Shown piece after piece: positions 4,280-20,279 of a stretch of 64,000 nt of DNA (position 1 is the stretch's first letter; the number at the start of each line of letters is the position of its first letter). Source of the DNA: Bosea sp. BIWAKO-01 (GTDB taxonomy: Bacteria > Pseudomonadota > Alphaproteobacteria > Rhizobiales > Beijerinckiaceae); contig NZ_BCQA01000001.1 of NCBI RefSeq assembly GCF_001748145.1, forward strand, positions 4,614,501-4,678,500, written 5' to 3'. Below the pieces are notes generated by a model. It had not been told where the DNA came from and ran no database searches. It saw only the letters and a program-made list of their open reading frames with translations. Both the position numbers and the translations under genes were made by a program.

Positions 4280-4290
4280 GGTCGACTCCT

Positions 4291-4923
4291 TCAAGGGGCT
4301 GGGGCAGGCGTTGGAGAGGTGGTCAGCAAGGCGCGTTCGACGAACCCGAGCCTGTCCTGGCCCCAGAACAGTTCGTTGTTCACGACGTAGGTGGGAGTGC
4401 CGAAGATGCCGAGACGCTCGGCTTCAGCGAGATTGTCGTTCCAGGCCGAGATAATCGCCGGCTGCTTGGGATTGGTGACGAACGGTACCGCGACTTCGCC
4501 AAGCGTTTCGCGGGCGATTGCCTTCAGCGTATCGAGATCGGCAATATCCTGGTCTTCCGCCCAGAGCGCGCGCTGGATGGCAAAGGAGAAGCCGCGCGCA
4601 TCGAGGCCGGCACGATCGATGGCGATCACGGCCTGTGCCGCCGGTTCGATCGTCCGGCATGGGTAGAAGCGCGGCTTCAGGTTGAGTTCCATGCCGAGGT
4701 GGCGGCGCCAGCGGTCGAGTTCAACCGCATGATAGGCCTGACGCGGATCGGGACGGGTCCTCAGCGGAATACCGCCATTCGCTTCGATGATCCGGATCGG
4801 CCGTAGCCGGAGATGCGCGCCTGTGCGTTCGACGATGTCGTAAAGCCTGGGCGCGCCGAAATAGGCCCAGGGCGAGGAGATACCGTAGAAGGCCTCGACC
4901 ACCGGGCGCTCATGTCCCGGCAT
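4291..4923 (-). CDS. 2-hydroxychromene-2-carboxylate isomerase-like (DsbA-fold) protein
   Basis: A thioredoxin-fold protein of the kappa-class GST / HCCA isomerase family, about 210 residues. The N-terminal strand and first helix read VVEAFYGISSPWAYFG; in this family a Ser at this place replaces the redox Cys and activates glutathione. The C-terminal G-I-F-G-T-P-T-Y-V with E-L-F-W-G-Q-D-R is also typical. NahD-type members isomerise ring-cleavage products of fused aromatics. ATG 4923 is preferred because GGAGG lies six bases upstream inside the end of the monooxygenase gene, giving a 14-base overlap. An aromatic catabolic role is inferred from the neighbours. Confidence 0.85.
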   Translation of the reverse strand: MPGHERPVVEAFYGISSPWAYFGAPRLYDIVERTGAHLRLRPIRIIEANGGIPLRTRPDPRQAYHAVELDRWRRHLGMELNLKPRFYPCRTIEPAAQAVIAIDRAGLDARGFSFAIQRALWAEDQDIADLDTLKAIARETLGEVAVPFVTNPKQPAIISAWNDNLAEAERLGIFGTPTYVVNNELFWGQDRLGFVERALLTTSPTPAPAP

Positions 4924-6379
4924 GGCTGGCCTCCAGCTCGGCGTCTGCATCCTGCCATTCGTCGCCAAGCAGCTCGGGCGTATCGTAGGCCATCAAGGCC
5001 CGGTAATGCGTCTCGCGATCGGCGACGAAGAGTGCGCGGGCGATGCCGCGGGCCAACCGCTCGGCGCCGTCGCTGACCGCCGGAATGTCGCCCGAGAGCT
5101 TTCCGTGGCTCAGCATCGCGGGATAGTTGAAGCAGTGTATGTGCGAGAGGGCCAGGCAGGTGCCCGGTGCTTTCTCCTGGAATTCGAAGGCGGGGCCGAG
5201 ATCGGGGACGTGCAGCAACTCGGCGCTGTCGTTCCCCGGCGGCGGCGTATAGCGGTCGTTCCAGAAGCGGATGAAGGGCGCGATCGCTGCGAGTTCCGGA
5301 CGCTGCCCGGGATCGACCGAGAAGCCGGTTGCGAAAATCAGGAAGTCGAGATGATGCACGCCCTTCGGCGTGGTCAACACGAGATGGCCATCCCGTTCCG
5401 CGAGATCGAGCAGCGGGCTGCCGAGATGGAACCGGGAATTGGCATGGCGCGAGACCCGCAAGGTGCTGTCGCGCGGCGGCGGGGTCTGCGCCTTCAGCGC
5501 GTAGTCGAGGAAGCGCCATTTCCAGTCGTCCGGCAGCCCCGCGAAGCCATGCACCACGCCCTGGCTGCCGATGCCGGTGAACTTGTTGATCCGCGGCAGA
5601 TCCTTGCGACGCACAATGAGATCGAGACTGGCAACGCCATGCTCCAGTGCGGTCGCCGCATTGTCCATCGCCGAGGCGCCGGCGCCGATCACGCCGACCC
5701 GCAGGCCCTTCAATGCCGCAAAGTCGATATCGTCCGCGCTATGGGCCCAGAATTTGCGGTCGATGCCATGCGCGATCGGTGGCACCCAGGGGCCGCCCAG
5801 CCCGTCGCGGCCGGTGGCAAGCACCAGATGCCGCGTGAAGATGGTGCGTGATCCCTCCGCATCCGAGATGTCGAGGGCCAGGATGTCGTCGGCCTGCGGC
5901 GTCACCGCGTCGAGCGAGGTTCCGTTCGCGATCGGGAGGCTCAGCACGCGCCGGTACCAGACAAGGTAGTCCATCCACATGCCGCGCGGGATCTTGCCGA
6001 GGGCGTCCCAGGCCGTGCGGCCGAACTGCGCCTCATACCAGGCGCGGAAGGTCAATGCGGGCAGGCCGAGCGCGGGGCCGGTGAGCTGCTTGGGCGAACG
6101 CAGGGTTTCCATGCGCGCATAGGTCGCCCAGGGGCCTTCCTGGCCGGCGGGGGCGCGGTCGAGTACGGTCATGTTGGAGAGGCCGAGCCCCTTGAGCGCG
6201 GCCGAGGCTGCCAGACCGCACATGCCGGCTCGGATCACGACGACGTCGCGAACACGCTGACCGTTGAACTCGCGCCGCGGCACCCAGTCCTTCGCCGGCC
6301 ATTCCAGCCAATCAAGGTCCTGTCGGAGGCGTCGCTCCAATGCGGGGAGGCCCATCGGGGCCGGCAATCCGGCATTCAT
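4910..6379 (-). CDS. Flavin-containing monooxygenase-like NAD(P)-dependent oxidoreductase
   Basis: A 489-residue protein with the two-Rossmann layout of class B flavoprotein monooxygenases (FMO/BVMO). The NADPH motif VGVIGAGASAMDNAA lies near residues 228-242 and an LATG hinge is near 187-190, followed by an LIFATGF segment. The N-terminal FAD motif reads VVVIRAGMCG: the first glycine of GxGxxG is Arg50 (codon CGA where GGA would give Gly). That change should hamper FAD binding, so the protein may be impaired or specialised. It overlaps the LysR stop at its start (ATGA) and the isomerase gene at its end. A ring- or heteroatom-oxygenating step in the operon is inference. Confidence 0.85.
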   Translation of the reverse strand: MNAGLPAPMGLPALERRLRQDLDWLEWPAKDWVPRREFNGQRVRDVVVIRAGMCGLAASAALKGLGLSNMTVLDRAPAGQEGPWATYARMETLRSPKQLTGPALGLPALTFRAWYEAQFGRTAWDALGKIPRGMWMDYLVWYRRVLSLPIANGTSLDAVTPQADDILALDISDAEGSRTIFTRHLVLATGRDGLGGPWVPPIAHGIDRKFWAHSADDIDFAALKGLRVGVIGAGASAMDNAATALEHGVASLDLIVRRKDLPRINKFTGIGSQGVVHGFAGLPDDWKWRFLDYALKAQTPPPRDSTLRVSRHANSRFHLGSPLLDLAERDGHLVLTTPKGVHHLDFLIFATGFSVDPGQRPELAAIAPFIRFWNDRYTPPPGNDSAELLHVPDLGPAFEFQEKAPGTCLALSHIHCFNYPAMLSHGKLSGDIPAVSDGAERLARGIARALFVADRETHYRALMAYDTPELLGDEWQDADAELEASHAGT

Positions 6380-7481: not shown

Positions 7482-8198
7482 TCAGAAATGGATGCCGTCG
7501 AAGACCCGTTCCTGGGCATTGCGGATATGGGCCTGCATCGCCTCGCGCGCCCTGACGCCATCGCCGTCGCGGATGGCCTCGAAGACGGCCGCATGCTCGC
7601 GCTGAACCATGGCGAGGTGCTCAGCCGATTGCAGGACGGAGAAGCTGCGCGCGAGGTCGATGACGAAATCGACCTGAGGCCTCACCGTGGCGAGGGCTGC
7701 CTCGAAATAGGGGTTCTGGGTTGCCCGTGCGATCGCTGCGTGGAAATCGCTGTCCTGCTGGACGCCGATCCTGCCCGTCTTGATCGCGAGGTGGATCGCG
7801 TCGAGTTCCTTCTGGATCGCGGTGATATCGGCCTCGCTGCGATGCAGCGCGGCCGCATAGGCAACTTCGCCTTCGAGCGCGATCCGGAACTGATAGACGC
7901 GCCTGACATCAGAGATCGTGCGAATGCCTTCCGTCCTGCTCGCGGGGGGGCGGGGCGGCGGTGGGGGCTGCTGCGGCTGCACTGCTGCGACGAAGCTGCC
8001 GGCGCCTTGCCGGGAATGGATCAGGCCGTCATCGCGCAGGCGCCGTAATGCCTCGCGCACGGTCGGGCGCGAGACGCCAAACTCATGGCTCAGTTCGTTC
8101 TCCGAGGGCAGCTTGCCATCGGAGAAGGCGTCGCCGCGCCGAAGGCGCTCCAGCATGTCCGCATAGAGTACGTCGCTCAGCTTCGGGCGGTGAGACAC
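7482..8198 (-). CDS. GntR-family regulator, FCD (FadR) subfamily
   Basis: A 238-residue regulator. The N-terminal GntR winged helix spans about residues 7-70 (LPSENELSHEFGVSRPTVRE, then GLIHSRQGAGSFV). A proline-rich linker (QQPPPPPRPP) follows, then a helical FCD ligand domain with the expected metal-type pattern D-F-H-A-A-I. It is divergent from the oligopeptide-type ABC operon at 8429, and the region between them carries inverted repeats that could be its operators. FCD regulators usually respond to small organic acids. The poly-Pro linker is unusually long but in frame. Confidence 0.9.
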   Translation of the reverse strand: MSHRPKLSDVLYADMLERLRRGDAFSDGKLPSENELSHEFGVSRPTVREALRRLRDDGLIHSRQGAGSFVAAVQPQQPPPPPRPPASRTEGIRTISDVRRVYQFRIALEGEVAYAAALHRSEADITAIQKELDAIHLAIKTGRIGVQQDSDFHAAIARATQNPYFEAALATVRPQVDFVIDLARSFSVLQSAEHLAMVQREHAAVFEAIRDGDGVRAREAMQAHIRNAQERVFDGIHF

Positions 8199-8386: not shown

Positions 8387-8428
8387 GGGGCCGGCGACCT
8401 TCGAGGCCCGGTGCGGGGAGATCATTTC

Positions 8429-9946
8429 ATGACCACGACGCGTCGTGCCATCCTCCAGGCCGGGCTTGCCCTGCCGTTCATGTCAATGCCGGGGCGCGCG
8501 CAGCGTGCGAGCGGCGTCCTGCGCTACGGGCTTTCCGCCTTTCCGCCCAATCTTCAGCCCTGGGTCAGCACCGGAGCCTCGGCCGGCACGGTGAAGATGC
8601 TCACGCATCGCAGCCTCGTTTCCTATGACAGCAAGGGCGAGTTGCGAGGCGAGCTGGCCGAGTCCTGGTCGCGCGACAGCGACGGCGCCTGGGTCTTCAA
8701 GCTGCGGCAGGGCTGCGTGTTCCATAATGGCGAACCGGTCACGGCCGAGGACGTGAAGTGGTCGATCGAGCAGATCGCCGGCGAGAAGTCGACCGCCTAT
8801 ATGCGCACCCAGTTCCAGGGGATCGAGCGTGTCGAAATCCCCGACCCGAAGACCATCCGGCTCGTCACCACGCTGCCGCAGGCGACGTTGCCGAGCTGGT
8901 TCGGCAACTACAACACTTTCGTGATCTGGCGGAAATCGGCGCCTAACGAGCCGATCGGAGCCGGCCCGTTCAGGCTGGTCGCGCAGGAGCGCGGGACCTC
9001 GCTCGACCTCGTCGCTTTCGACAAGTTCTACAAGCCGGGTTTTCCGAAGGTGAAGGGCATCAAGTTCGTCGTCTATGCCGACGAGAACCTGCGCTTCGCC
9101 GCGCTGCAGTCCGGCGATGTCGACATGATCGAATATGTCCCGTGGCAGTCGATGTCCGCGGTCGAGGCCGACCCCAAGCTGAAGCTCGATTCGGTCGAGG
9201 GGCCATTCATGGACATCCTCTTCAACGGCACCAAGCCGCCCTTCAACGATGCGCGGGTGCGCCGGGCCATCGCCCATGCCGTCAAGCGCGACGATATCGT
9301 CAAGGCCGCCTTCTTCGGACGTGGCAAGCCGCTCGAGGGCCTGCCGATCGTCGAAGGCACGCCCTGGTATGACAAGGAACTGGCGCATGGCTGGAATTAC
9401 GATCCGGCTCGGGCCAAGGCGCTGCTCGCCGAGGCCGGATTCGCCAACGGCTTCCAGTCGACGCTGCTCGCGACCTCGCAGTTCGGCATGCACAAGGATA
9501 CGGCCGAGGTGGTGCAGCAGCATCTCGCCGCCGTCGGCATCCAGTGCGAGCTGCAGCTTCCGGATTGGTCGACCCGGGTGAGCCGCGGCACGCGCGGCCA
9601 GTACGACATGGCGATCCACGGCGTCTCGTCGGACAACAACGACCCCGATGGCCTGACCGTGGTACTCGACACTTCGTTGTCTCCGACCCATGGCCGCTCC
9701 TTCAAGGTCGATGCTCCGCGCACGATTGCGGCACTCGCCAAGGGGCGTTCCGAGTTCGATCAGGCCAAACGGGTCGAGATCTACAAGGAGATGCAGCGCG
9801 CGGCGCTCGAGGAGGTGCCCCTGGTCGGCCTCGCCTGGCGCTCGCAAGGCTACGGCATGGACAAGAGCGTGATGGGCTTCACCAACCTGCCCGGCGCGCT
9901 CACCACCTCATCGGGCGCGACGCTTGAAGAGACCTATTTCGGATGA
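8429..9946 (+). CDS. ABC transporter substrate-binding protein, family 5 (peptide/opine type)
   Basis: A 505-residue periplasmic binding protein of the DppA/OppA family. The N-terminus MTTTRRAILQAGLALPF is a twin-arginine-like leader ending after G-R-A-Q. Family features include ESWSRDSDGAWVFKLRQGCV, FHNGEPVTAEDV and FNDARVRRAIAHAVKRDDIV. ATG 8429 is chosen because GGGGAG lies eight bases upstream; a GTG at 8411 would add residues ahead of the twin arginines. The stop overlaps the permease start. It captures the ligand for the two following permeases. Peptides, opines or other amino compounds are possible ligands. Confidence 0.93.
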   Translation: MTTTRRAILQAGLALPFMSMPGRAQRASGVLRYGLSAFPPNLQPWVSTGASAGTVKMLTHRSLVSYDSKGELRGELAESWSRDSDGAWVFKLRQGCVFHNGEPVTAEDVKWSIEQIAGEKSTAYMRTQFQGIERVEIPDPKTIRLVTTLPQATLPSWFGNYNTFVIWRKSAPNEPIGAGPFRLVAQERGTSLDLVAFDKFYKPGFPKVKGIKFVVYADENLRFAALQSGDVDMIEYVPWQSMSAVEADPKLKLDSVEGPFMDILFNGTKPPFNDARVRRAIAHAVKRDDIVKAAFFGRGKPLEGLPIVEGTPWYDKELAHGWNYDPARAKALLAEAGFANGFQSTLLATSQFGMHKDTAEVVQQHLAAVGIQCELQLPDWSTRVSRGTRGQYDMAIHGVSSDNNDPDGLTVVLDTSLSPTHGRSFKVDAPRTIAALAKGRSEFDQAKRVEIYKEMQRAALEEVPLVGLAWRSQGYGMDKSVMGFTNLPGALTTSSGATLEETYFG

Positions 9947-10899
9947 GCGCGACCTGGTTCGCGCGCCGCCTCGCGGTTTCGCTCGGCCTCGCCTGGGTCG
10001 TTGCAACGATCGTCTTTCTCGCCCTGCACATGGTGCCGGGCGACCCTGCCGAATTGCTGCTTTCTACGGGAGGGATCTCACCCGACCCGGCGGCTGTCGC
10101 GGAGTTGCGTGAAAAGCTTGGGCTCGAGCGGCCGTTGCTCGCGCAGTACGGCGCGTTCCTCGCCGGCCTCATGCAAGGCAATCTCGGGCATTCCCTGGTC
10201 GATGATTATCCGGTGCTGAGCGAGATCGCGCTACGCCTGCCGCGCACGCTGGAGCTCATTCTCGCCGGCACCTTGATCGGTATCGCGGTCGGCGTGCCCT
10301 CCGGCGTCTATGCGGCCCTCCATCGGGGCGGGCGCTTCGATCGCATCGCCTCTGGCGTCACGGCGCTCCTGCTGGCCATACCGGTTTTCGTGGTGGGCAC
10401 ATTGCTCGTGCTGTTGATGGCGCAGACCCTGCGGCTGATGCCGGCCGGCGGGTTCGTGCCCTTCACTCAGGATCCGGTCCAGCATTTCAAGTTGCTGACG
10501 CTGCCGGCCATCGCGGTCGGAAAGGGGCTGGCCGCCATCCTGTTCCGGATGACGCGCGCCTCGACGCTGGATGCGCTGGCCAATGACTATGTCCGCACCG
10601 CCCGCGCAAAGGGCCTGTCGCAGCCGCGCATCCTGGTCGTCCATGTGCTGCGCAATGCGCTCAATCCGGTCCTGACCGTGCTCGGCCTGCAAATGGGAAC
10701 CCTGCTGGGCGGCACCGTGCTCGTCGAATACGTCTTCAACTGGCCGGGCCTGTCGACGCCGCTGCTGCGGGCCGTCGAGGCGCGCGACTATCCGATGGTG
10801 GTCGGAATCATTCTCACCATTTCGGTGTTGTTCCTGTTGATCAACCTAGTGGTCGAGATTCTTCACGCGGTCGTTGATCCGAGGGTGCAGGCGGGATGA
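9943..10899 (+). CDS. ABC transporter permease (DppB/OppB family)
   Basis: A 318-residue inner-membrane permease with six predicted membrane helices and the DppB N-terminus (FLALHMVPGDPAELLL). The EAA loop reads DYVRTARAKGLSQPRILVVH, the site that contacts the ATPase. The ATG overlaps the binding-protein stop by four bases and the stop overlaps the next permease start. It pairs with the 10896 gene to form the channel. Confidence 0.93.
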   Translation: MSATWFARRLAVSLGLAWVVATIVFLALHMVPGDPAELLLSTGGISPDPAAVAELREKLGLERPLLAQYGAFLAGLMQGNLGHSLVDDYPVLSEIALRLPRTLELILAGTLIGIAVGVPSGVYAALHRGGRFDRIASGVTALLLAIPVFVVGTLLVLLMAQTLRLMPAGGFVPFTQDPVQHFKLLTLPAIAVGKGLAAILFRMTRASTLDALANDYVRTARAKGLSQPRILVVHVLRNALNPVLTVLGLQMGTLLGGTVLVEYVFNWPGLSTPLLRAVEARDYPMVVGIILTISVLFLLINLVVEILHAVVDPRVQAG

Positions 10900-11699
10900 A
10901 ACGGCTCTGGCTTCCCGGCGCCTTTGTCGCGCTGATCATCCTCGTCGCTCTCGCCGCTCCGTTTCTCGGCCTGCCGGATCCGGTCAGGCAGGACATTGCC
11001 CGGCGGCTCGCTGCGCCGAGCGCGGGGTCGTGGCTCGGCCGCGACGAGTTCGGCCGGGATGTGCTGTCGCGTTTGATCTGGGGCGCGCGCACAAGTCTGG
11101 GCGTCGCCTTCGTCGCTGCCTTGGTTGCGGGAACAATCGGCACCGCGATCGGCCTGATCGGGGGCTGGGGCAAGGGGCTCGGTGCGTTCCTGACGGTGCG
11201 CAGCGTCGAGATCATCATGTGCTTTCCGCCGGTGCTGCTCGCCCTGCTGGTCGTCACCTTGCTCGGGCCGGGTGCAGCGACGCTGGTCCTCGTCCTGTCG
11301 GTTCTCTATCTGCCGGGCTTCGCACGCGTGGCCTATGCGGAAGTACTCGCAGTGCGGGCGCGCGAATATGTCGAGGCGGCGCGTGCGTTCGGCGCCACGC
11401 CCCGCCGCATTCTGCTCCGCACCGTGCTTCCCAATATTGCCGGTCCGCTTCTGGTGCAGCTGTCCCTGACGGTGGCGGCCGCTGTCGTCATCGAAAGCGG
11501 CCTGTCCTTTCTCGGGCTTGGCGTCGTTCCGCCGGCGCCCTCCTGGGGACTGATGATCAGGGGCGCGCGCGCCACGATGGAGCAGGCGCCGCTGCTGCTG
11601 CTCTGGCCCTGCGCGGCGCTGACGCTGACCATCCTCGCCATCAACCTGCTCTGCGATGCCCTGCGCGACGCGGTCGATCCCCGAACCGCCGACCGCTGA
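10896..11699 (+). CDS. ABC transporter permease (DppC/OppC family)
   Basis: A 267-residue permease with the DppC hallmark WLGRDEFGRDVLSRLIWGAR and the EAA loop REYVEAARAFGATPRRILLR. It is slightly short for the family because the N-terminal cytoplasmic extension is minimal. It completes the channel with the upstream DppB-type protein. No DppD/DppF ATPase gene follows; the next gene is a creatininase-family enzyme. The importer therefore needs an ATPase encoded elsewhere or shared. Confidence 0.93.
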   Translation: MKRLWLPGAFVALIILVALAAPFLGLPDPVRQDIARRLAAPSAGSWLGRDEFGRDVLSRLIWGARTSLGVAFVAALVAGTIGTAIGLIGGWGKGLGAFLTVRSVEIIMCFPPVLLALLVVTLLGPGAATLVLVLSVLYLPGFARVAYAEVLAVRAREYVEAARAFGATPRRILLRTVLPNIAGPLLVQLSLTVAAAVVIESGLSFLGLGVVPPAPSWGLMIRGARATMEQAPLLLLWPCAALTLTILAINLLCDALRDAVDPRTADR

Positions 11700-11762
11700 G
11701 GGGCGAAGCCTCCCCATGACGATCCTCACCGCGAACTTCCTCGCATATCCAGGATGAAGCCA

Positions 11763-12587
11763 ATGGCCACCAAGACTACTCCTCTCGTTCACATGGGCAC
11801 GATCACCGGCGGAGAGGCACGGGAGATCCTCGAAGAGAACCCCGTCATCCTGCTGCCGATGGGCAGCCACGAGGATCAGGGCCCGCACGCACCGATGGGC
11901 GACTATCTTCTCGCCGAGAAGATCGCCGAGCTCGCGGCCATTCGCGCCTCGGAGCGCGGTGTGCGCACGCTGGTTGCTCCCGTCCTGCCCTTCGGCGGCG
12001 CCGACTGGTTCGGTCCGATGGTTGGCGGCATTGCCATATCGCAGTCGACCTTGACGGCGGTGATCGCCGAGATGGTGGATTCGCTGCATCGCAATGGCCT
12101 GACCCGCATCATCGTGATCAACGGCCATGGCGGCAATGTCGGCCCGATCTCCGATGTGGCGCGCGAGCTTTACCAGCGCGAGCAGATCGTCCTGCCGAGC
12201 CTGTATCTCTGGCGCATCGCCTACGGGCTGCTGCCGGGCATTCTCGGCGCGGAGAAGGCGGCTGCGGTCGCTGGGCATGGTGCCGATCCGCTGACCAGCC
12301 TCGGGCTGCACCTGTTCCCGGAGCTGATGCGCAAGGACCTGATCCCGGCCGGCCAGCCGCTGAAGCGCGATCCCGTGCTCGACCTGCAGTTCACAGGGCT
12401 TGGCACGGCGAGCTTCGAGGGCGCCGAGGTGGCGATGCCCAACGAGTATGACGAGGTCTACAATCTCGGCGTAGCCAAGGGGGATCCGAAGCTGTGCTCG
12501 GCCGAAACGGGGGCTGCGCTCTCCGAGAGGCTCACCGAGATCTGCGCCCGTTTCGTGGCCCATTTCGCCAGCAAGGTCGACGGCTGA
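11763..12587 (+). CDS. Creatininase-family amidohydrolase with atypical metal-site motif
   Basis: A protein of about 274 residues in the creatininase / FAPy-deformylase superfamily, whose members hydrolyse cyclic or linear amides with two metals. The N-terminal motif reads LLPMGSHEDQGPHAPMGDY, where classic members have E-Q-H-G-P-H; the ligand His is Gln39 here. NGHGGN is intact. The later H-A-G-x-x-E-T-S motif reads GHGADPLTS, losing its Glu. ATG 11763 is preferred over 11754 because AGGA sits eight bases upstream. It follows the peptide-type ABC genes and probably acts on the imported compound. Confidence 0.8.
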   Translation: MATKTTPLVHMGTITGGEAREILEENPVILLPMGSHEDQGPHAPMGDYLLAEKIAELAAIRASERGVRTLVAPVLPFGGADWFGPMVGGIAISQSTLTAVIAEMVDSLHRNGLTRIIVINGHGGNVGPISDVARELYQREQIVLPSLYLWRIAYGLLPGILGAEKAAAVAGHGADPLTSLGLHLFPELMRKDLIPAGQPLKRDPVLDLQFTGLGTASFEGAEVAMPNEYDEVYNLGVAKGDPKLCSAETGAALSERLTEICARFVAHFASKVDG

Positions 12588-12716: not shown

Positions 12717-13778
12717 ATGCCGACACGTCGTCTTGTTCTTCAGACCGGGCTTGCGACGATCGCCGCTCCGGCTCTCGTCAGGGCCCAGGGGCTCAGCGGC
12801 TCGATCACGCTGATGTCCTATTCCGGGATCTTCCAGGACAATTACGTGAAGGCGGTGGTCGAACCGTTCCAGCAGGCCTTTCCCGGCGTGAAGGTGAACT
12901 ATGTGCCGGGCGGCACCTCGGCCCAGATGGTGGGCAGTGTCCGAGCCCAGAAGGCTGATCCGCAGGTCGATGTGGCGATCATGGATGTCACCACCTCCAG
13001 CATCGGCAATATCGAGGGGCTGTTCGAGAAGCTGACGCCTGCCGAGGTTCCGTCGCTGAACGAGCTCCACCCGGAGGCCCGCGCGGCCGGAGGCGATTAC
13101 GGGCCGGCCGTGACCTTCGACCATCTCGTGCTCGTTTATGACACGCAGAATCTGAAGCCGCCGATCGAGAAGCTCGCCGATCTCTGGCGACCCGACCTCA
13201 AGGGGCAGGTCGCTCTTGCGGCGCCGCCGAACATCCAGGGTCTTGCACTCACTGCAATGGTTGAGAAGATGGAGGGCGGCGATTACCGCAAGTCGATCGA
13301 TGCTGCGATCAAGAAGCTGCGCGCTCTGGCCCCTTCGGTGAATACCTTCGAGCCCAATCCGGATGGCTATTCGCTGATCCTGAACGGAGTGGTGAAAGTC
13401 GCGACCGGCTGGAACGCCCGTGCGCAGCTCTATGGCGACCAGACCGGCGGCAAGATCGCCGCGCTGCTGCCACCCGAAGGATCGGTCTTCCAGATCAACA
13501 CCATCAACCTGACTGCCGGCTCGAAGAACCGGGCCGCTGCGATCGCCTTCGTCAATTTTGCGCTGGCGCAAGCAGCGCAGAAGGCATTCACCGAGCGGAT
13601 GTTCTATGCGCCGACAAACGCCAAGGCAGCGATCGACGCCAAGGCGCTGGCACGTACCGCGGCAGCCCCGGAAAGCCGGGGCCGGATGATCGGCGTCGAC
13701 TGGAACGAGGTCCTGAAGATGCGCGATCAGTGGAACAATCGCTGGCGGCGCGAAGTCATCGCTGCGGCAGGTCGCTGA
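12717..13778 (+). CDS. ABC transporter substrate-binding protein, family 1 (PotD-like)
   Basis: A periplasmic binding protein of about 353 residues. The leader MPTRRLVLQTGLATIAAPAL has a twin-arginine look and probably ends at V-R-A-Q. The mature start GSITLMSYSGIFQDNYVKAV and the VNYVPGGTSAQMVG segment fit spermidine/putrescine-type receptors. GAGGGG lies just upstream of ATG 12717; an in-frame ATG at 12654 would bury the signal peptide. It heads a coupled cluster with PotA-, PotB- and PotC-like genes and four metabolic enzymes. The ligand need not be a polyamine, because this family also binds opines and amino acid derivatives. Confidence 0.9.
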   Translation: MPTRRLVLQTGLATIAAPALVRAQGLSGSITLMSYSGIFQDNYVKAVVEPFQQAFPGVKVNYVPGGTSAQMVGSVRAQKADPQVDVAIMDVTTSSIGNIEGLFEKLTPAEVPSLNELHPEARAAGGDYGPAVTFDHLVLVYDTQNLKPPIEKLADLWRPDLKGQVALAAPPNIQGLALTAMVEKMEGGDYRKSIDAAIKKLRALAPSVNTFEPNPDGYSLILNGVVKVATGWNARAQLYGDQTGGKIAALLPPEGSVFQINTINLTAGSKNRAAAIAFVNFALAQAAQKAFTERMFYAPTNAKAAIDAKALARTAAAPESRGRMIGVDWNEVLKMRDQWNNRWRREVIAAAGR

Positions 13779-13797
13779 GCCGGGATCGCAGCCTGCC

Positions 13798-14853
13798 ATG
13801 AGCTATCTCGAACTCGCCGGCCTGCAGAAGCGCTACCGCGATTCCGTCGCCGTCGATGACGTCGCGCTTTCGGTCGAGAAGGGCGAGGCCGTCGCTCTCC
13901 TCGGCCCCTCCGGCTGCGGCAAGACCACGACGCTGCGCATGCTTGCCGGCCTGATCGATCCCGACGCGGGCTCGATCCGCCTCGACGGTGCCCAGATCAC
14001 GCGCCAGCCGGCTCACAAGCGCAATATGGGCTATGTCTTCCAGTCCTATGCGCTGTTTCCGCATCTGAGCGTTGCCCGCAACGTGGGCTTCGGCCTCGAG
14101 GAAAGGCGGGTGCCGCGCCCTGAGACGTCGCGGCGCGTCGAAGAGGCGCTCGGCATGGTGCGCCTTGCCGGCCTCGAGGGCAGGCGCCCCCGCGAATTGT
14201 CAGGCGGTCAACAGCAACGCGTGGCGCTGGCGCGGGCGCTGGTCATTCGCCCGTCCGTGCTGCTGCTCGACGAATCCCTGTCCAATCTCGACGCCAAGCT
14301 GCGTGACGCAATGCGCCACGAGATTCGCGACATTCAACGTTCGCTCGGCATCACCACGCTCTTCGTCACGCACGATCAGGTCGAGGCGCTGACGATGTGC
14401 GATCGGATAGCGGTGATGAAGCGCGGGCGGATCGAACAGATCGGCACGCCGGAGGATATCTACGAGCGGCCCGCGACCCGTTTCGTCGCCGACTTCGTCG
14501 GGCGTGCCAATGCGCTGCCGGCCCTGCGAAATGGGGCAGGCGCCATCAGCGTCTGGGGAGTGACCTTGCCGGCCACCGCTCCGGCCGACGGCGAGGTCGA
14601 CGTCTTCGTGCGGCCGCAGCGCATCCGGCTCGCCGCAATCGGTGAGCCGTCCGGGGAGGGCATGGTCCGGCTGACCGGGCGGGTTCTGCGCAGCGTCTTC
14701 GTCGGAGACCATGTCGAGGTCATCGTCGAGGGGGCAGGGGGGCAGCTCAGCGTCGAGATGCAATCCGGCACGAAGCCGCCAGCGGTCGGGACCGAGGTCG
14801 CCGTACTTTGGCAGGCCGGGGACACGCTGCTCTTCCCGCGCGAGGCGACATGA
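13798..14853 (+). CDS. ABC transporter ATP-binding protein (PotA family)
   Basis: A 351-residue importer ATPase. Walker A is GPSGCGKT (36-43), the Q-loop is Q82, the signature LSGGQ is at 134-138, and the switch His is H192. Walker B reads VLLLDESLSNLD, with Ser160 replacing the usual Pro after the catalytic Glu159. A C-terminal TOBE-type domain follows from about residue 235. The stop overlaps the following permease start. It energises the importer formed by the two permeases downstream. Confidence 0.95.
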   Translation: MSYLELAGLQKRYRDSVAVDDVALSVEKGEAVALLGPSGCGKTTTLRMLAGLIDPDAGSIRLDGAQITRQPAHKRNMGYVFQSYALFPHLSVARNVGFGLEERRVPRPETSRRVEEALGMVRLAGLEGRRPRELSGGQQQRVALARALVIRPSVLLLDESLSNLDAKLRDAMRHEIRDIQRSLGITTLFVTHDQVEALTMCDRIAVMKRGRIEQIGTPEDIYERPATRFVADFVGRANALPALRNGAGAISVWGVTLPATAPADGEVDVFVRPQRIRLAAIGEPSGEGMVRLTGRVLRSVFVGDHVEVIVEGAGGQLSVEMQSGTKPPAVGTEVAVLWQAGDTLLFPREAT

Positions 14854-15692
14854 CCGCCGGCTCACGCCTGCCTTGGCTGGTCGTCCCGGCGGCGCTCCTT
14901 GTTCTCGCCGTCTATGTTTGGCCGACGCTCGGCCTGTTTCGCACCGCCTTCAACGAGGTCGGGCCGACAGGGGCGATGATCGAGGCCTGGTCGCTCAAGA
15001 CGACCAGCGAAGTCCTCGCTGATTCCTTCACGATCGAGCTCACGCTCAACTCGCTCTGGCTCTCGCTGAGCGCGACACTGATCGCGCTGTGCATGGCCTA
15101 TCCGGTCTCGCTGTTCCTGTTCCGGACGCAGTCACGCTTTCGTGGCTTGCTGGCCGTGATCGCGATCATGCCGATGCTGGTCTCCGGCGTGGTGCGCGTC
15201 TTCGGCTGGCTCGCCATCCTGGGGGATCGCGGGCTCGTCAACTCCCTTGCTCAGTGGCTGGGGCTGATCTCGACGCCGATGCGTCTGGTCTTCAACTGGA
15301 CGGGCGTCACTATCGGTCTCGCCGAGAGCATCATGCCTTATATGATCCTCGCGCTGCTCGCCGGTTTCGGCCGGCTCGACCGCACGCTGGAGGAGGCTGC
15401 GCGCAGCCTGGGCTGCACGCCGCTGCGCACCTTCCTGCGGGTGACCTTGCCGCTGAGCCTGCCGGCGCTCGCGCTCGCGGCGGGCCTGGGCTTCGTGCTT
15501 TCGATGTCGGCCTATATCACGCCCAAGTTGCTCGGCGGCGGTCGGGTCTTCGTGCTGGCGACGGAGATCTTCGAGCAGGCGACGACGAACACCAACTGGC
15601 CGGTGGCCGCCGTTCTGGCGATCTACACGCTGGTGCTGCTGCTGGCGCTGCTGGTGCTCTCCAATGTCGCGGCGCGGAGGCTACAGCGATGA
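14850..15692 (+). CDS. ABC transporter permease (PotB-like)
   Basis: A 280-residue inner-membrane permease with about six helices. The EAA loop reads RTLEEAARSLGCTPLRTFLR, followed by VTLPLSLPAL. ATG 14850 overlaps the ATPase stop (ATGA) and is preferred to an upstream GTG inside the ATPase gene. The stop overlaps the next permease start in the same way. It is one half of the polyamine-type channel. Confidence 0.92.
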   Translation: MTAGSRLPWLVVPAALLVLAVYVWPTLGLFRTAFNEVGPTGAMIEAWSLKTTSEVLADSFTIELTLNSLWLSLSATLIALCMAYPVSLFLFRTQSRFRGLLAVIAIMPMLVSGVVRVFGWLAILGDRGLVNSLAQWLGLISTPMRLVFNWTGVTIGLAESIMPYMILALLAGFGRLDRTLEEAARSLGCTPLRTFLRVTLPLSLPALALAAGLGFVLSMSAYITPKLLGGGRVFVLATEIFEQATTNTNWPVAAVLAIYTLVLLLALLVLSNVAARRLQR

Positions 15693-16477
15693 ATGGCGCC
15701 GGACCCGTCCTCTCGACGCTCGCAGGTATCGTCTACGCCCTGATCCTGGCGCCGATCGTCGTCGTCGTGGCACTCGCCTTCTCGGCGGACAATTTCATCC
15801 TGTTCCCGCCGTCCGGCTATTCGTTGCGCTGGTTCCGGCAACTCGCAGCCAACACACCGCTGCTGAACGCCGTCGTCCTCAGCGCTCAGATCGCCTGTGT
15901 GGTCACGGCGCTGTCGCTGCTGCTTGGCGTGCCGGCGGCGCTGGCGCTGGACAAAGGCCGGTTTCGCGGCCAGGAGGCGCTGAAGAACTTCTTCCTCGCG
16001 CCGTTGCTGCTGCCCACCTTGATTGTCGGCCTCGCGCTTCTGCTGTTCTTCACCCCGCTCAGGCTGACTGCGACCTTGCCCGGGCTTGTGCTCGGCCACA
16101 TGACCGTGACCCTTCCTTTCGTGATCCGGATGATGACGACGGCATTCTCGACGCTGCCGGATGATATCGAGGCGGCTGCAGCGACGCTGGGGGCAAAGCC
16201 CTGGCGGGTGATCTGGCGCGTGACGCTGCCGCTTGCCACGCCCGGCCTGATTGCCTGCGGCGCGCTGTCCTTCCTGCTGTCTTTCGACGAGACCGTGATC
16301 TCGCTCTTCCTTTCCGGTCCGCGTGCTTCGACGCTGCCGGTCGAGATGGTGCGCTATGTCGAAGGACGCACCGATCCGCTCGTCGCGGCCCTGTCGGTGA
16401 TCCTGATCGTCGCGACCCTCATCATTGTCGTTCTGGTCGAACGTCTCGTCGGCGTCGCGCGCGCCGTCGGCCAATAG
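15689..16477 (+). CDS. ABC transporter permease (PotC-like)
   Basis: A 262-residue permease with the PotC-type opening (ILAPIVVVVALAFSADNFIL, then SLRWFRQL) and the EAA loop DIEAAAATLGAKPWRVIWRV. ATG 15689 overlaps the PotB-like stop. The same frame is open far upstream, but that extension lies inside the preceding gene and has no membrane character. It completes the importer of this cluster. Confidence 0.92.
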   Translation: MNGAGPVLSTLAGIVYALILAPIVVVVALAFSADNFILFPPSGYSLRWFRQLAANTPLLNAVVLSAQIACVVTALSLLLGVPAALALDKGRFRGQEALKNFFLAPLLLPTLIVGLALLLFFTPLRLTATLPGLVLGHMTVTLPFVIRMMTTAFSTLPDDIEAAAATLGAKPWRVIWRVTLPLATPGLIACGALSFLLSFDETVISLFLSGPRASTLPVEMVRYVEGRTDPLVAALSVILIVATLIIVVLVERLVGVARAVGQ

Positions 16478-16486
16478 GAGAGAACC

Positions 16487-17164
16487 ATGCCCGACTACCG
16501 CATCGAAGCCATGCCGCAGCAGATCTCGCCGGCCCTAGCCGAGAAGCTCAGCCGAGTCGAAACCGCCACCATCGGCCATTCCCAGCACTGGGGGTTCATG
16601 GACCGGGGCATCCAGCCCTTGCTGCGCAACAAGCGTATCGCCGGCGCCGCGGTGACGCTCGCCATTCCCGGGCAGGATTCGACGCTGCTGCACCACGCGC
16701 TCGGGCTTCTGCGCCCCGGCGACATCCTCGTGGTCGATCGGCTCGGCGATGACAAACATGCCTGCTGGGGCGGTGGCGTCACCGTGGCGGCCAAGGCGGC
16801 CGGCGCAATCGGGGGCATCGTCGACGGGCCCTGCACGGATCTGACCGAGATCGAAGACAGCGATTTCCCGATGTGGTGCCGCGGCATGTCGCCGATCACG
16901 ACTCGACTCTACAATCTCGGTGGCACGCTGAACCTGCCGATCTCCTGCGGCAATGTCGCGGTGAGGGCCGGGGACATCATCCTCGCGGACGAGTCCGGCG
17001 TGCTAGTGCTTCCGGCAGGAGAGGCCGAGGCGATTGCCGATGCGGCGCTGTCCCGGCAGGAGCGTGGCGAGCGCACTCAGGCGCGCGTCAAGGCCGGCGA
17101 GAAGCTTGGCGACATCTCCGGCGCCACCAAGATGGTGCTCGAGGCGTTGAAGCAGAACGGCTGA
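16487..17164 (+). CDS. RraA-family protein (aldolase/decarboxylase-like fold)
   Basis: A 225-residue protein of the RraA / 4-hydroxy-4-methyl-2-oxoglutarate aldolase family, usually homotrimeric or hexameric. The conserved core is visible: LRPGDILVVDRLGDDKHACW, GGVTVAAKAAGAIGGIVDG and a C-terminal V-R-A-G-D-I-I-L-A-D-E-S-G-V. The active-site motif normally D-G-x-x-R-D is DGPCTD here, so the substrate-binding Arg is Thr117. That argues against the classical aldolase reaction. It lies nine bases after the permease gene with an AGGAGAG ribosome binding site and belongs to the same operon. Confidence 0.88.
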   Translation: MPDYRIEAMPQQISPALAEKLSRVETATIGHSQHWGFMDRGIQPLLRNKRIAGAAVTLAIPGQDSTLLHHALGLLRPGDILVVDRLGDDKHACWGGGVTVAAKAAGAIGGIVDGPCTDLTEIEDSDFPMWCRGMSPITTRLYNLGGTLNLPISCGNVAVRAGDIILADESGVLVLPAGEAEAIADAALSRQERGERTQARVKAGEKLGDISGATKMVLEALKQNG

Positions 17165-17175
17165 GGACAGGCACG

Positions 17176-18855
17176 ATGAACGCCCAGCTGCGCGGCCCGC
17201 GCGTCGCCAATTTCACCTGCGAGAAGCTGTCGGCCACCGGCTCGCGCGGCATGGTCGTCACCAATCATCCGCTCGCCTCGGCCGCGGGATCGCACATGCT
17301 GCTCGCGGGCGGCAATGCCATCGATGCGGCCGTCGCCTCGCTGTTCGCGCTCACCGTCGTCGAACCGATGATGGTCGGCGTTCTCGGCGGCGGCGTTGCC
17401 CATATCCGGCTGGCTGACGGTCGTCATCTCGTGCTTGACGGTTTGTCGACCGCGCCGGGCAAGGCCAGTGCCGACATGTATGAGGCGCTGTCTCACGAGG
17501 TCGGCAAGGCGCGCGATACGCGTGACCGCGAGAATCTCGTCGGCCCCAAGGCCGTCGCGGTTCCCGGAGCGCTCGCCGGCTGGTGCGAGGCGCTGGCGCG
17601 CTTCGGCACGCTGCCGCTCGCCGATGTGCTCCAACCCGCGATCCGGCTGGCCGAACGCGGGTTCGTGGTCAGCCCTTATCTCTCCGATTGCATCGCGGAT
17701 TGCGCGCCGGAACTCGCGCGCGATCCGGGACTCGCAAAACTGTTCCTACCGGGCGGGAAGGCCCTTCCGGCGGGTGAGCGGCTGGTTCAGGGGGATTATG
17801 CCGCAAGCCTGCGGCTGATCGCCGAGACCGGCCCCTCCGCGCTCTATGACGGACCGCTCGGCGCGGCGCTAACCTCCTTCATGGCGGCCAATGGCGGGCT
17901 GATCGACCAGGCAGATCTCGCCGCCTTCAAGGTGATCGAGCGCGAACCGGTGCGCGGTCGCTATCGCGGTTTCGAGATCCTCGGTCCGCCGCCGCCATCC
18001 TCCTCCGGCGTCCATATCGTGCAGATGCTGAACATCCTCGAGGGCTACGATATCGGTGCGCTCGGCTTCGGCTCGAGCGATGCCGTGCATCTCGTTGCCG
18101 AGGCCCTGAAGATCGCCTTCGCCGATCGGGCGGTGGCGACTGCGGACCCGGCCTTCGTCAGGGTGCCGATCGAGCGTCTGACGGCCAAGGCCTACGCCGA
18201 TGAGCGCCGCGCCGATATCGACATGACCCATACCAAGGCCTGGGCGGCCGGTCTCAGCGCTGGGGAATCCGCGAACACCACCCATGTCACTGTAGCGGAT
18301 GCGGCTGGCAATGTGGTTGCGACCACCCAGACGATCAACGGCCTGTTCGGCGCCTGCACTCAGATCCCCGGCACCGGGATGCTGACCAACAACTATATGT
18401 ATAATTTCGACCCGCATCCCGGCCGCGCGCTCTCGATCGCGCCAGGCAAGCGGGTCTTCACCTCGATGGCGCCGATGATGGTCCTGCGCGATGGCAAGCT
18501 TGCCTTCGCGCTCGGCCTGCCCGGCGGCCTGCGCATCTTCCCCTCGGCACTGCAGGCGATCGTCAACCTGATCGATCACGGCATGAGCCTGCAGGAGGCC
18601 GTCGAGGCGCCGCGTGTCTGGACGGAGGGTGGAGCCCTCGAACTCGAGAGCGGGATCCCGGATTCGGTCGCCAGCGAACTGACTGCGCGCGGCCATCAGA
18701 TTGCACGCGTGCAGCGTGTCGCCGGCGGCATGAATGCCATCGGCTTCAATTCCGACGGAACGCTCACCGGCGCAGCCTGCTGGCGCGCCGATGGCACGCC
18801 CGTCGCGATCTCCGGCGGGCTGGCGCGCGCCGGCGTCCGTTTCACCATTGCCTGA
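17176..18855 (+). CDS. Gamma-glutamyltransferase-family Ntn hydrolase
   Basis: A 559-residue precursor expected to self-cleave before Thr368 (NTTHVTVAD), giving about 40 and 20 kDa chains. Asn388 (TQTIN) and the oxyanion-type segment F-T-S-M-A-P are present. The large-chain Arg that holds the glutamyl alpha-carboxylate in GGT (R-E-M-A-P in E. coli) is replaced: the sequence reads L-S-T-A-P with Leu90. The Asp that binds the alpha-amino group is Asn410 (NNYMYNF). No signal peptide is visible. It probably hydrolyses another amide. ATG 17176 lies 12 bases after the RraA-like stop; longer reading inside that gene is not credible. Confidence 0.88.
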   Translation: MNAQLRGPRVANFTCEKLSATGSRGMVVTNHPLASAAGSHMLLAGGNAIDAAVASLFALTVVEPMMVGVLGGGVAHIRLADGRHLVLDGLSTAPGKASADMYEALSHEVGKARDTRDRENLVGPKAVAVPGALAGWCEALARFGTLPLADVLQPAIRLAERGFVVSPYLSDCIADCAPELARDPGLAKLFLPGGKALPAGERLVQGDYAASLRLIAETGPSALYDGPLGAALTSFMAANGGLIDQADLAAFKVIEREPVRGRYRGFEILGPPPPSSSGVHIVQMLNILEGYDIGALGFGSSDAVHLVAEALKIAFADRAVATADPAFVRVPIERLTAKAYADERRADIDMTHTKAWAAGLSAGESANTTHVTVADAAGNVVATTQTINGLFGACTQIPGTGMLTNNYMYNFDPHPGRALSIAPGKRVFTSMAPMMVLRDGKLAFALGLPGGLRIFPSALQAIVNLIDHGMSLQEAVEAPRVWTEGGALELESGIPDSVASELTARGHQIARVQRVAGGMNAIGFNSDGTLTGAACWRADGTPVAISGGLARAGVRFTIA

Positions 18856-18883
18856 TTTCGTTCAAGCCAATCGGACCATCATC

Positions 18884-19849
18884 ATGTCAGAAACCATCGT
18901 CGTCCTCGATCCCATGGCGCCTGAACGCGCCGACAAGCTCAGGGCGCTCCTGCCGCCGGGTTTCGTCCTCACGCATGGTACGGCGCGCGGCGACGATCAC
19001 ATGAAGGAGATCATCGCGGAGGCCGAATACGCGATCGCGGGACAGGTCGGCGTCAATGCCGAGGTGCTGAAGGCGGCGAAGAAGCTCAAGCTGCTGCACA
19101 AATGGGGCGTCGGGGTCGATAATCTCGACACCCAGACCGCCAAGCAGCTTGGCATCAAGGTTGCCCGCACCACGGGCAGCAATGCCGTGCCGGTCGCCGA
19201 GTTCACGCTCGGGCTGATGCTCTCGGCCCTGCGTCACATTTCCTTCGGCCATGCCGAGCTGAAGAAGGGTGACTGGCGTGGCGGGCGCCTGCCGGGCGAC
19301 ACCTTCACCCTGTCCGGCAAGACGGTCGGGATCGTAGGCTTCGGCGCCATCGGCCAGAATGTCGCGAAACTGCTGAAGGGCTTTGGCTGCACGATCCTGT
19401 ATTCGAAGCGCCAGCCGCTCTCCGCCGCAGAGGAAGCCGAGCTTGGCGTGAAGCACGCTTCGCTGGCAGAACTGCTGGCGAAGTCCGACGTCGTCTCGCT
19501 GCATTGCCCCCTGACGCCGGAGACGGCGAACATGATCGACAGGTCTGCCTTCGCTGCGATGAAGAAGACGGCGGTGCTTATCAATGTGGCGCGCGGCGGC
19601 GTCGTCGCCGAGAACGACTTGATCGAGGCTCTCCGCGCCAAGGAGATTGCCGGCGCCGCGATGGACGTGTTCGAGATCGAGCCGCTGCCGGCTGACAGCC
19701 CGCTGCTCGGGCTCGACAATCTGGTGGTGACGCCGCATCTGGCGGCGATCGCATCCGACAATTTCGCCCCGACGGTCAAGCGGATGTTCGACAACATCGC
19801 TCGTGTCTCGCGCGGCGAGCCGGTGCCCGAGCGCGACAGCGTCGTCTGA
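18884..19849 (+). CDS. D-isomer-specific 2-hydroxyacid dehydrogenase
   Basis: A 321-residue NAD-dependent dehydrogenase of the phosphoglycerate/glyoxylate reductase family. The Rossmann motif VGIVGFGAIG holds G152, G154 and G157. The catalytic set is Arg237 (INVARGGVV), Glu266 (EIEP) and His285 (TPHLAA). It interconverts a 2-keto acid and a D-2-hydroxy acid. It sits between the GGT-family and mgsA genes. It could reduce a ketoacid produced by the cluster. The exact substrate is unknown. Confidence 0.93.
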   Translation: MSETIVVLDPMAPERADKLRALLPPGFVLTHGTARGDDHMKEIIAEAEYAIAGQVGVNAEVLKAAKKLKLLHKWGVGVDNLDTQTAKQLGIKVARTTGSNAVPVAEFTLGLMLSALRHISFGHAELKKGDWRGGRLPGDTFTLSGKTVGIVGFGAIGQNVAKLLKGFGCTILYSKRQPLSAAEEAELGVKHASLAELLAKSDVVSLHCPLTPETANMIDRSAFAAMKKTAVLINVARGGVVAENDLIEALRAKEIAGAAMDVFEIEPLPADSPLLGLDNLVVTPHLAAIASDNFAPTVKRMFDNIARVSRGEPVPERDSVV

Positions 19850-19880
19850 GCCTGCGCGGGCTGGAACAGGGAAGGCGGAC

Positions 19881-20279
19881 ATGACGAAACGGCTCGGCAT
19901 CGGCTTGATCGCCCATGACCGCAAGAAGCCCGATCTTGCGGCCTGGGTGACGCGCAACATCCAGGTGCTGAGCGCGCATCGCCTGGTCGCCACGGCGACG
20001 ACCGGCTCCGTGCTGAAGCAGAGCCACCCGGATGTCAGCGTCGAGACCGTGAAGAGCGGCCCGCTTGGCGGCGATCAGCAGATCGGAGCGATGATCGCCG
20101 AGGGCAAGATCGACGTGCTGATCTTCTTTCCCGATCCGCTTGCCGCCATGCCCCATGACGTCGATGTCAAGGCGCTGCTTCGCCTCGTCCTTGTCTATGA
20201 TATCCCCGCGGCCTTCAGCCCGAGCACCGCCGACGCATTGATCATGTCGGACGTGTTCTCTCCGGCACGGAAGCGCTAG
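19881..20279 (+). CDS. mgsA: Methylglyoxal synthase
   Basis: A 132-residue enzyme converting dihydroxyacetone phosphate to methylglyoxal and phosphate. Conserved residues are in place: H12-D13 (IAHDRKK), catalytic Asp65 (GPLGGDQQ), Asp85 (F-P-D-P-L), His92 and Asp95 (PHDVDVKALLRL). It is shorter than the E. coli enzyme because the N- and C-termini are trimmed. GGAAGGCGG precedes ATG 19881. Its last 38 bases overlap the end of the convergent RND pump gene. Its place after a D-hydroxyacid dehydrogenase could link it to lactate or detoxification chemistry, which is inference. Confidence 0.93.
   Translation: MTKRLGIGLIAHDRKKPDLAAWVTRNIQVLSAHRLVATATTGSVLKQSHPDVSVETVKSGPLGGDQQIGAMIAEGKIDVLIFFPDPLAAMPHDVDVKALLRLVLVYDIPAAFSPSTADALIMSDVFSPARKR

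Follow-up and report, generated by a model that had tools for sequence, protein, structure and literature searches.

An RraA-fold protein with threonine in place of the aldolase arginine at the core of an ABC-importer gene set in Bosea sp. BIWAKO-01

We analysed a 64,000-nucleotide stretch (hereafter, the window) of the 7.33-Mb, two-contig genome of Bosea sp. BIWAKO-01, which contains a run of same-direction genes for two importers and several enzymes. We regard the unit as a putative catabolic operon of the known ABC-importer sort, built around an uncharacterised subfamily of enzymes. As judged from the comparison of related loci, the constant and defining element of the set is a protein of the RraA fold (positions 16487..17164), here called T-type, in which a threonine occupies the position of the arginine of HMG/CHA aldolase.

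Specifically, alignment of the T-type protein to the solved structure of HMG/CHA aldolase (3NOJ) placed Gly96 at Asp102, Thr117 at Arg123, Asp118 at Asp124, Thr139 at Thr145 and Leu141 at Lys147. Thr117, singled out in a first-pass annotation made from the DNA letters alone, is thus borne out. The protein resembles HMG/CHA aldolase and the RraA-like oxaloacetate decarboxylases in fold and in the metal-binding Asp, but differs from the aldolase in lacking its Arg123, Asp102 and Lys147 and in having an Arg85 and a Thr138 of its own. Its motif reads G-X20-TD-X2-E, and Gly96 and Glu121 agree with what we take to be the second RraA-like motif, G-X20-RD-X2-E/D. In a study of HMG/CHA aldolase, two metal/catalysis motifs are said to cover most homologs, and Arg123 is termed essential, the R123K substitution giving a 181-fold lower kcat (PMC5065237).

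Related loci were collected by scanning contigs, one genome per species, with peptide patterns derived from an alignment (A1); the best 80 of 381 relatives, starting from a 13-protein RraA alignment, are referred to as L045-L124. Position 117 is Thr in 120 and Ala in one of 121 sequences, that is, 120 distinct relatives plus the window protein. Because one of the search patterns contains 'TD', the conservation of Thr117 in L045-L124 is partly a matter of ascertainment, and we therefore quote a second set of 42 distinct proteins, collected with no motif filter and coming from 44 loci outside L045-L124, 20 of the proteins having been reached through a profile built on T-type sequences. Here position 117 is Thr in 41 proteins, Ala in one and Arg in none; Arg85, Asp88, Trp130 and Thr138 are invariant (42/42), and the metal-ligand Asp118 is retained in 38. 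Five RraA-like paralogs of the same genome keep the RD pair and lack both Arg85 and Thr138. Asp88 is shared by all five and Trp130 by one, and these two positions were therefore not counted as part of the T-type signature. With the enolate-stabilising Arg replaced by Thr or, once, Ala across the 121 sequences, the earlier proposal of retro-aldol cleavage or decarboxylation finds no support as far as the textbook RraA mechanism is concerned.

The AlphaFold model of the protein, computed from an alignment (A2) of the window sequence and 40 of the 80 loci, has a mean predicted local distance difference test score (pLDDT) of 95.9, and its best Foldseek match in the PDB is HMG/CHA aldolase 3NOJ (TM score 0.90, root-mean-square deviation 1.6), followed by RraAS2. 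Sequence matches to solved structures rank in the same way: HMG/CHA aldolase at E 1e-23, Streptomyces RraAS2 at E 4.8e-19 and classical RraA at E 2.6e-07 or worse. The protein falls under the cut-offs of all nine NCBIfam models that it matched; of the features of an HMG/CHA pyruvate aldolase, the fold and the metal Asp were found and the enolate-stabilising Arg was not. Since a conserved signature goes together with an aldolase-like fold, these proteins represent a coherent subfamily and not a decayed aldolase copy. It is improbable that they act as regulators carried in catabolic operons, like the RraA proposed as an inhibitor of RNase E. The RraA fold would suit such a role, as would the second place of RraAS2, an unusual RNase ES inhibitor, and four tandem-copy loci in which Gly replaces the metal Asp and Arg replaces Glu121; set against this are the better match to HMG/CHA aldolase, the far weaker one to classical RraA, the retention of the metal ligand in most of the 42 proteins and the steady linkage to importers and hydrolases. 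The tandem pairs of T-type genes occur at L167, L168, L172 and L173, and the substitutions are those of the aligned copy.

Genes of the window were identified from reading frames and by Pfam and NCBIfam scans. The unit and its probable regulator comprise the following features.

7482..8198, minus strand: divergent GntR-family regulator, read from its translation, 212 nt from the DppA gene; probable regulator of the unit
8411..9946, plus strand: DppA-type solute-binding protein (SBP_bac_5; PF00496, 286.7 bits)
9943..10899, plus strand: DppB-type permease (PF00528 and PF19300)
10896..11699, plus strand: DppC-type permease (PF00528)
11754..12587, plus strand: creatininase-family amidohydrolase (PF02633, 158.7 bits); no evident signal peptide
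12717..13778, plus strand: solute-binding protein of the Pot/PhnS superfamily (PF13416); N-terminal export signal read from the sequence
13798..14853, plus strand: PotA-type ATPase (PF00005 and TOBE_2; 374.8 bits to PhnT2, under its cut-off)
14850..15692, plus strand: PotB-type permease (NCBIfam scan)
15689..16477, plus strand: PotC-type permease (NCBIfam scan)
16487..17164, plus strand: RraA-fold T-type protein (PF03737) with Gly96, Thr117 (Arg in aldolases), Asp118 and Glu121
17176..18855, plus strand: N-terminal nucleophile (Ntn) hydrolase of the gamma-glutamyltransferase (GGT) family, with the Thr368 nucleophile kept and Leu90, Tyr407 and Asn410; no evident signal peptide
18884..19849, plus strand: D-2-hydroxyacid dehydrogenase of the PGDH/glyoxylate-reductase type (PF02826, 221.3 bits; PF00389)
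19881..20279, plus strand: methylglyoxal synthase MgsA (NF003559), a lineage-specific addition outside the conserved unit

The first-pass annotation had described eight genes on one strand at 12717-20279; they lie on the plus strand, and both the reading frames and their families stand. Two further statements had to be corrected. Most genes were said to be coupled by overlaps, but only two of the seven junctions in this interval overlap (PotA/PotB and PotB/PotC, by 4 nt in each case), and at the remaining five the genes are separated by 9-31 nt. In addition, the unit does not start at 12717 but upstream, at 8411, with a DppABC importer and a creatininase-family gene in the same direction, the successive gaps from DppA to the 12717 gene measuring -4, -4, 54 and 129 nt. 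A scan for promoters and terminators gave numbers close to chance (2 promoters against 1.2 expected; 6 terminators against 5.8 expected). In related loci the place of the GntR gene is taken by a divergent GntR/FCD gene (cluster 14), which is not an obvious ortholog of the regulator in the window. At the other end, the last 38 nt of MgsA (20242-20279) are shared with the end of an RND pump gene that converges on it. Judged from their translations, the minus-strand genes at 1309-6379 resemble a TctABC-type tripartite tricarboxylate importer, together with a DsbA-like protein and a flavin-dependent oxidoreductase.

The linkage of these genes was followed in related genomes. Among 150 genomes of the order, 12 contain a match to the RraA-like protein at E 1e-40 or better, the Bosea genome itself included, and in several of them a gene for the Pot-type solute-binding protein (SBP), PotA, the GGT or the dehydrogenase adjoins the RraA gene. 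By identity of the RraA protein, the nearest relatives at the locus are Rhizobiales AFS057535 (98%) and Bosea sp. LC85 (97%). Across the 80 loci, counted at 40% identity or more, we found PotA in 67, PotB in 67, PotC in 68 and the SBP in 48, the PotA count being possibly inflated by generic ATPase matches; the dehydrogenase was present in 28, the creatininase in 24, the GGT in 22, DppA, DppB and DppC in 20, 21 and 21, and MgsA in 2. With an identity threshold of 35% the seven-gene set SBP-PotABC-RraA-GGT-dehydrogenase, without MgsA, recurs in 18/80 loci, and with one of 60% in 17/80; the 11-gene set, which adds DppABC and the creatininase, recurs in 15/80. Bosea thiooxidans DSM 9653 (L060) is one of the strains that have the set and no MgsA in it. 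Rearranged forms exist as well: in L117 the GGT/dehydrogenase and Dpp/creatininase genes lie on the other strand, still linked, in L056 the Pot genes are inverted and the GGT is absent, and a Terrarubrum plasmid stretch (L125) lacks the Pot importer but carries Dpp genes and their ATPases alongside creatininase, RraA, GGT and dehydrogenase. As a control, the six other RraA-family genes of the Bosea genome were inspected, and in none of them (0/6) did an SBP, PotB/C, creatininase, GGT or Nit-like gene occur within about 10 kb; one had a 43% dehydrogenase relative and two had only generic ABC ATPase matches (31-37%). We conclude that the gene linkage exceeds chance expectation and that the genes form a conserved, presumably catabolic unit, which holds across several bacterial families, on chromosomes and plasmids, despite rearrangement.

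Two of the titles in this collection are probably those of mislabelled or mixed assemblies: the RraA of L049 (titled Mycobacterium sp. KBS0706) groups with Inquilinus on the tree described below, and that of L101 (titled Bacillus subtilis SK6B4) falls inside the Brucellaceae group.

MgsA, which had been placed in the pathway, does not belong to the recurrent set. MgsA accompanies the seven genes in only 2/80 loci, L045 and L046, where the genes match those of the window at 93-100% identity, and it was therefore rejected as a pathway member. Absence of the whole set from related genomes, named at the outset as the observation that would tell against an operon, is thus seen outside the close kin of the window only when MgsA is counted; without it the set recurs. 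The protein itself is above the equivalog cut-offs for methylglyoxal synthase (NF003559, 174.2 against 84; TIGR00160, 151.6 against 146.9), and the other two PF02142 matches of the genome fall in long open frames (588 and 1131 residues), which to judge from their lengths are probably PurH and CarB. MgsA occurs in 21/385 genomes of the class, beside a T-type gene only in the genome of the window, G414 and G501 carrying both on different contigs. The best reading is that MgsA joined recently, as a later passenger. The dehydrogenase matched both PF02826 and PF00389 and has Arg237, Glu266 and His285, presumably the Arg-Glu-His catalytic triad of D-2-hydroxyacid dehydrogenases.

The partners of T-type genes were then counted by tblastn over 120 distinct loci (124 loci with identical proteins merged), loci cut by a contig end included. 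The importer genes were the most frequent (PotC 73, SBP 71, DppB 42), followed by a Nit-like carbon-nitrogen (CN) hydrolase (40), the dehydrogenase (30), the creatininase (28), an HpcH/HpaI aldolase (27), the GGT (26), TRAP DctM (14), a distant GGT (6), HyuA (6) and MgsA (2). An amide hydrolase, whether GGT, creatininase, CN hydrolase or HyuA, is present in 80/120 loci, an importer in 101/120 and both in 72/120; Nit-like genes are the commonest hydrolase partner in this sample. On a midpoint-rooted tree of 119 of the 121 RraA sequences (two were dropped by a length/stop filter), in which long branches are of unsure place, the label 'GGT or creatininase in the stretch' changes 11 times, at least 8 of these changes being forced by starred branches, against a mean of 30.5 after shuffling; the label 'Nit-like hydrolase' changes 10 times, at least 5 being forced, against 33.3. 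Partner labels thus switch often yet cluster strongly, the pattern that would arise if one step stayed fixed while lineages exchanged the hydrolase and importer around it.

The arrangements behind these counts are diverse. A second T-type gene of the Bosea genome (G000:C1:5385396) is flanked by a CN hydrolase and by SBP-PotABC-HyuA-HyuB. Brucellaceae, Rhizobiaceae and Halotalea loci combine SBP-PotABC, HpcH/HpaI, a CN hydrolase and RraA, mostly with a LysR gene, and L116 adds to the SBP-PotABC/HpcH-HpaI/CN-hydrolase arrangement a GGT (79%) and a dehydrogenase (77%). According to the annotations, a Shinella plasmid and an Agrobacterium plasmid carry Dpp, a serine hydrolase, a creatininase, RraA and an N-formylglutamate amidohydrolase; in Ketogulonicigenium RraA is accompanied by a Dpp-type importer, a distant GGT and an N-formylglutamate amidohydrolase, and in Nitratireductor by an annotated TRAP transporter and a CN hydrolase. 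The single CN-hydrolase partner that was searched against solved structures matched Nit2/NIT-type proteins best, and the top model for two CN-hydrolase representatives was deaminated-glutathione amidase, with scores under the cut-off. The second T-type unit of the Bosea genome (L039, G000:C1:5376000-5395900) lies near another Dpp-type importer. In seven Roseomonas-type loci (L093, L100, L107, L108, L115, L120 and L124) the neighbourhood of the T-type gene includes those of an H+-pumping pyrophosphatase and of a soluble inorganic pyrophosphatase, L107 being without SBP-PotABC. At L044 (10344-11960) and L043 (10990-12591) a gene for a thiamine-diphosphate enzyme adjoins the T-type RraA gene, and the L044 copy, which exceeds the cut-off for 5-guanidino-2-oxopentanoate decarboxylase, hints at guanidino acids in that branch.

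The creatininase (28/120) and HyuA (6/120) partners could also indicate catabolism of cyclic ureido or guanidino compounds of the imidazolone or hydantoin type, for instance methylglyoxal-arginine adducts, with rings opened by creatininase and HyuAB. The presence of MgsA in the clade of the window would agree with this, and L044 combines a 57% creatininase relative with a match to 5-guanidino-2-oxopentanoate decarboxylase (654.2 against a 500-bit cut-off). However, the creatininase-family protein of the window meets PF02633 at the family level and reaches only 61 bits on the TIGR04448 equivalog, against a cut-off of 235, and it is under the cut-offs of all four NCBIfam models that it matched; the Nit-like partner is more widespread, and we know of no Nit-like enzyme that opens ureido or guanidino rings. 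We regard ring catabolism of this type as quite unlikely.

The changes in the GGT-family protein reported by the first-pass annotation, Leu90 and Asn410, were confirmed by alignment to E. coli GGT: Arg114 corresponds to Leu90, Gln430 to Tyr407 and Asp433 to Asn410, the nucleophile Thr368 and Asn388 being kept, and Thr368 aligns to the start of the small chains of GGT in the PDB. We take the three E. coli residues to be those that bind the gamma-glutamyl group, the Asp contacting the alpha-amino group and the Arg the alpha-carboxylate. The likeness to E. coli GGT extends to a full-length family match above the TIGR00066 cut-off (456.2 bits against 357.85), the nucleophile Thr, the Gly-Gly and the equivalent of Asn411, while these three substitutions and the lack of an evident export signal set the window protein apart. 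In the 21 of 23 cluster members displayed, a set without the near-identical L045 and L046, Leu, Ile or Met stands at position 90, Tyr at position 407 and Asn at position 410. Another 17 relatives from elsewhere in the class likewise have no Arg at position 90 and no Asp at position 410, and the changes therefore mark a wider GGT subfamily; close relatives (E <=1e-140) occur in 19/385 genomes of the class. The case for the GGT as the defining enzyme of the unit is weakened. In one locus, L073 (10001-12292, a Hyphomicrobiales metagenome-assembled genome), RraA-like and GGT-like sequences share a single 764-codon open frame, either a fusion or a sequencing frameshift.

These residues also bear on the simplest alternative, ordinary scavenging of peptides or gamma-glutamyl compounds, in which the GGT would cut gamma-glutamyl peptides and the RraA-like protein would be a normal pyruvate aldolase or oxaloacetate decarboxylase. 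The TIGR00066 score, the Dpp-type peptide importer in the unit and the aldolase label of the RraA protein in several records are what such a system would show. Nevertheless we consider it unlikely, since the window protein and the 21 cluster members have other residues at the equivalents of Arg114, Gln430 and Asp433, as have the 17 further relatives at those of Arg114 and Asp433, whereas a GGT encoded elsewhere in the Bosea genome (L001) retains Arg and Asp; moreover, the aldolase Arg is missing from 42/42 T-type proteins.

The four Pot-type proteins of the window matched NCBIfam models only under the cut-offs (best 25 per protein), and no DppD/F ATPase gene adjoins DppABC in the window; DppABC-associated ATPases are present in the Inquilinus and Terrarubrum clusters. 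The unit resembles PotABCD and PhnSTUV importers in gene order and domain content and differs from them in a receptor without the polyamine-binding acidic residue of PotD. Specifically, the 12717 receptor, whose best solved-structure sequence match is 4EDP (E 1.2e-29), has Gln259 at Trp255 of PotD and Asn261 at Asp257. Both PotD residues are, we assume, polyamine-binding, Asp257 being the acidic residue that binds amines. At least 95% of 69 receptors keep Gln259 and Asn261, with Arg76 and Arg235 conserved alongside; because these residues replace those of PotD and the two arginines are conserved, the comparison points to an anion as the ligand. Uptake and catabolism of polyamines, for which the PotABCD-type architecture would speak, is accordingly highly improbable, all the more as the Pfam and NCBIfam scans found no polyamine-catabolism family among the genes of the unit. 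A polyamine ligand was rejected on the four receptor residues, and 'polyamine-type', the term that the first-pass annotation used for the importer, is valid for the transporter family only.

With these alternatives weighed, we tentatively favour a route in which an amide or lactam is imported, hydrolysed in the cytoplasm and passed to the T-type protein and then to the 2-hydroxyacid dehydrogenase. The compound taken up by the Dpp-type and Pot-type importers would derive from a small 2-oxo or 2-hydroxy (di)carboxylic acid and lack a free alpha-amino group; the loss from the GGT-family protein of the Asp that contacts this group speaks for such a compound. Its C-N bond would be cut by a cytoplasmic hydrolase, through creatininase-type ring opening, the Thr nucleophile of the GGT type, or both, and in other lineages by Nit2-like, HyuAB or N-formylglutamate-amidohydrolase enzymes. 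As the GGT-family protein has no evident export signal, hydrolysis is likely cytoplasmic and follows import. The T-type protein would take the oxo acid so released as its substrate and work with a divalent metal, at a site with Asp118 and Glu121 and without the pyruvate-enolate Arg chemistry of HMG/CHA aldolase, and the dehydrogenase would interconvert oxo and hydroxy acid, passing the carbon into central metabolism. Chemistry of this kind has a precedent: PMC5485471 lists 2-oxoglutaramate, L-2-hydroxyglutaramate and L-2-hydroxysuccinamate as substrates of human Nit2, gives the omega-amidase reaction from 2-oxosuccinamate to oxaloacetate, states that the rat-liver omega-amidase refuses glutamine and asparagine, and describes 2-oxoglutaramate in solution as mostly lactam. 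Like the Nit2/omega-amidase and NIT1 deaminated-glutathione amidase pathways, the proposed route would split a 2-oxo acid amide and then put the oxo acid to use; it differs from them in that the window unit has no Nit-like gene, GGT- and creatininase-family enzymes standing in its place. The earlier idea of a catabolic unit that joins an importer, amide hydrolysis and RraA-like and dehydrogenase steps is sustained by conserved co-occurrence, which persists through rearrangement, and by partner switching, while MgsA, the boundaries, the polyamine ligand and the textbook RraA chemistry fall away.

Several observations weigh against this route. The weakest points are the loss of the GGT carboxylate-binding Arg, which an alpha-keto acid substrate leaves unexplained, and the loci without any of the listed hydrolases: 40 of the 119 tree rows have no GGT, creatininase or Nit-like gene, a threshold-dependent count that includes some stretches cut by a contig end, and most of the Roseomonas group, for example, has SBP-PotABC-RraA alone. 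The GGT is absent from L052, L054, L056 and L061, which retain creatininase and dehydrogenase. Conversely, of 17 fetched places of GGT relatives (of 22 outside the Bosea genome), only L151 has the dehydrogenase, SBP, PotABC and a T-type RraA, and L146 and L147 have only a weakly similar Dpp-type importer. In the T-type protein itself, Asp118 is lost in 4 of the 42 rows (Gly, in the tandem-copy loci), and Glu121 is retained in only 31.

Taken together, the T-type protein is quite possibly an undescribed metal-dependent enzyme with a residue set of its own (Arg85, His/Tyr91, Thr117, Asp118 and Thr138), which would act on an oxo acid freed by whichever amidohydrolase the lineage has recruited, and would form the common core of many amide-catabolic operons often misnamed HMG aldolase. 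In public records the relatives of the T-type protein mostly go by the name 'RraA family protein' or by that of '4-hydroxy-4-methyl-2-oxoglutarate aldolase'. Resemblance to the RraA-like protein at E 1e-30 or better extends to 2,684 protein clusters, whose Thr signature was not checked individually, and many source names among the best 120 clusters say aldolase. No publication on the gene set or on the T-type subfamily was among the matches listed in an open-access literature search, subscription papers and preprints being outside its scope.

In conclusion, the T-type signature and its unrelated amide hydrolase partners sharpen the loose notion of a 'catabolic operon' into a question that can be tested on one defined protein, for which several natural partner swaps serve as internal controls, and they caution against reading MgsA or 'polyamine' into the pathway.

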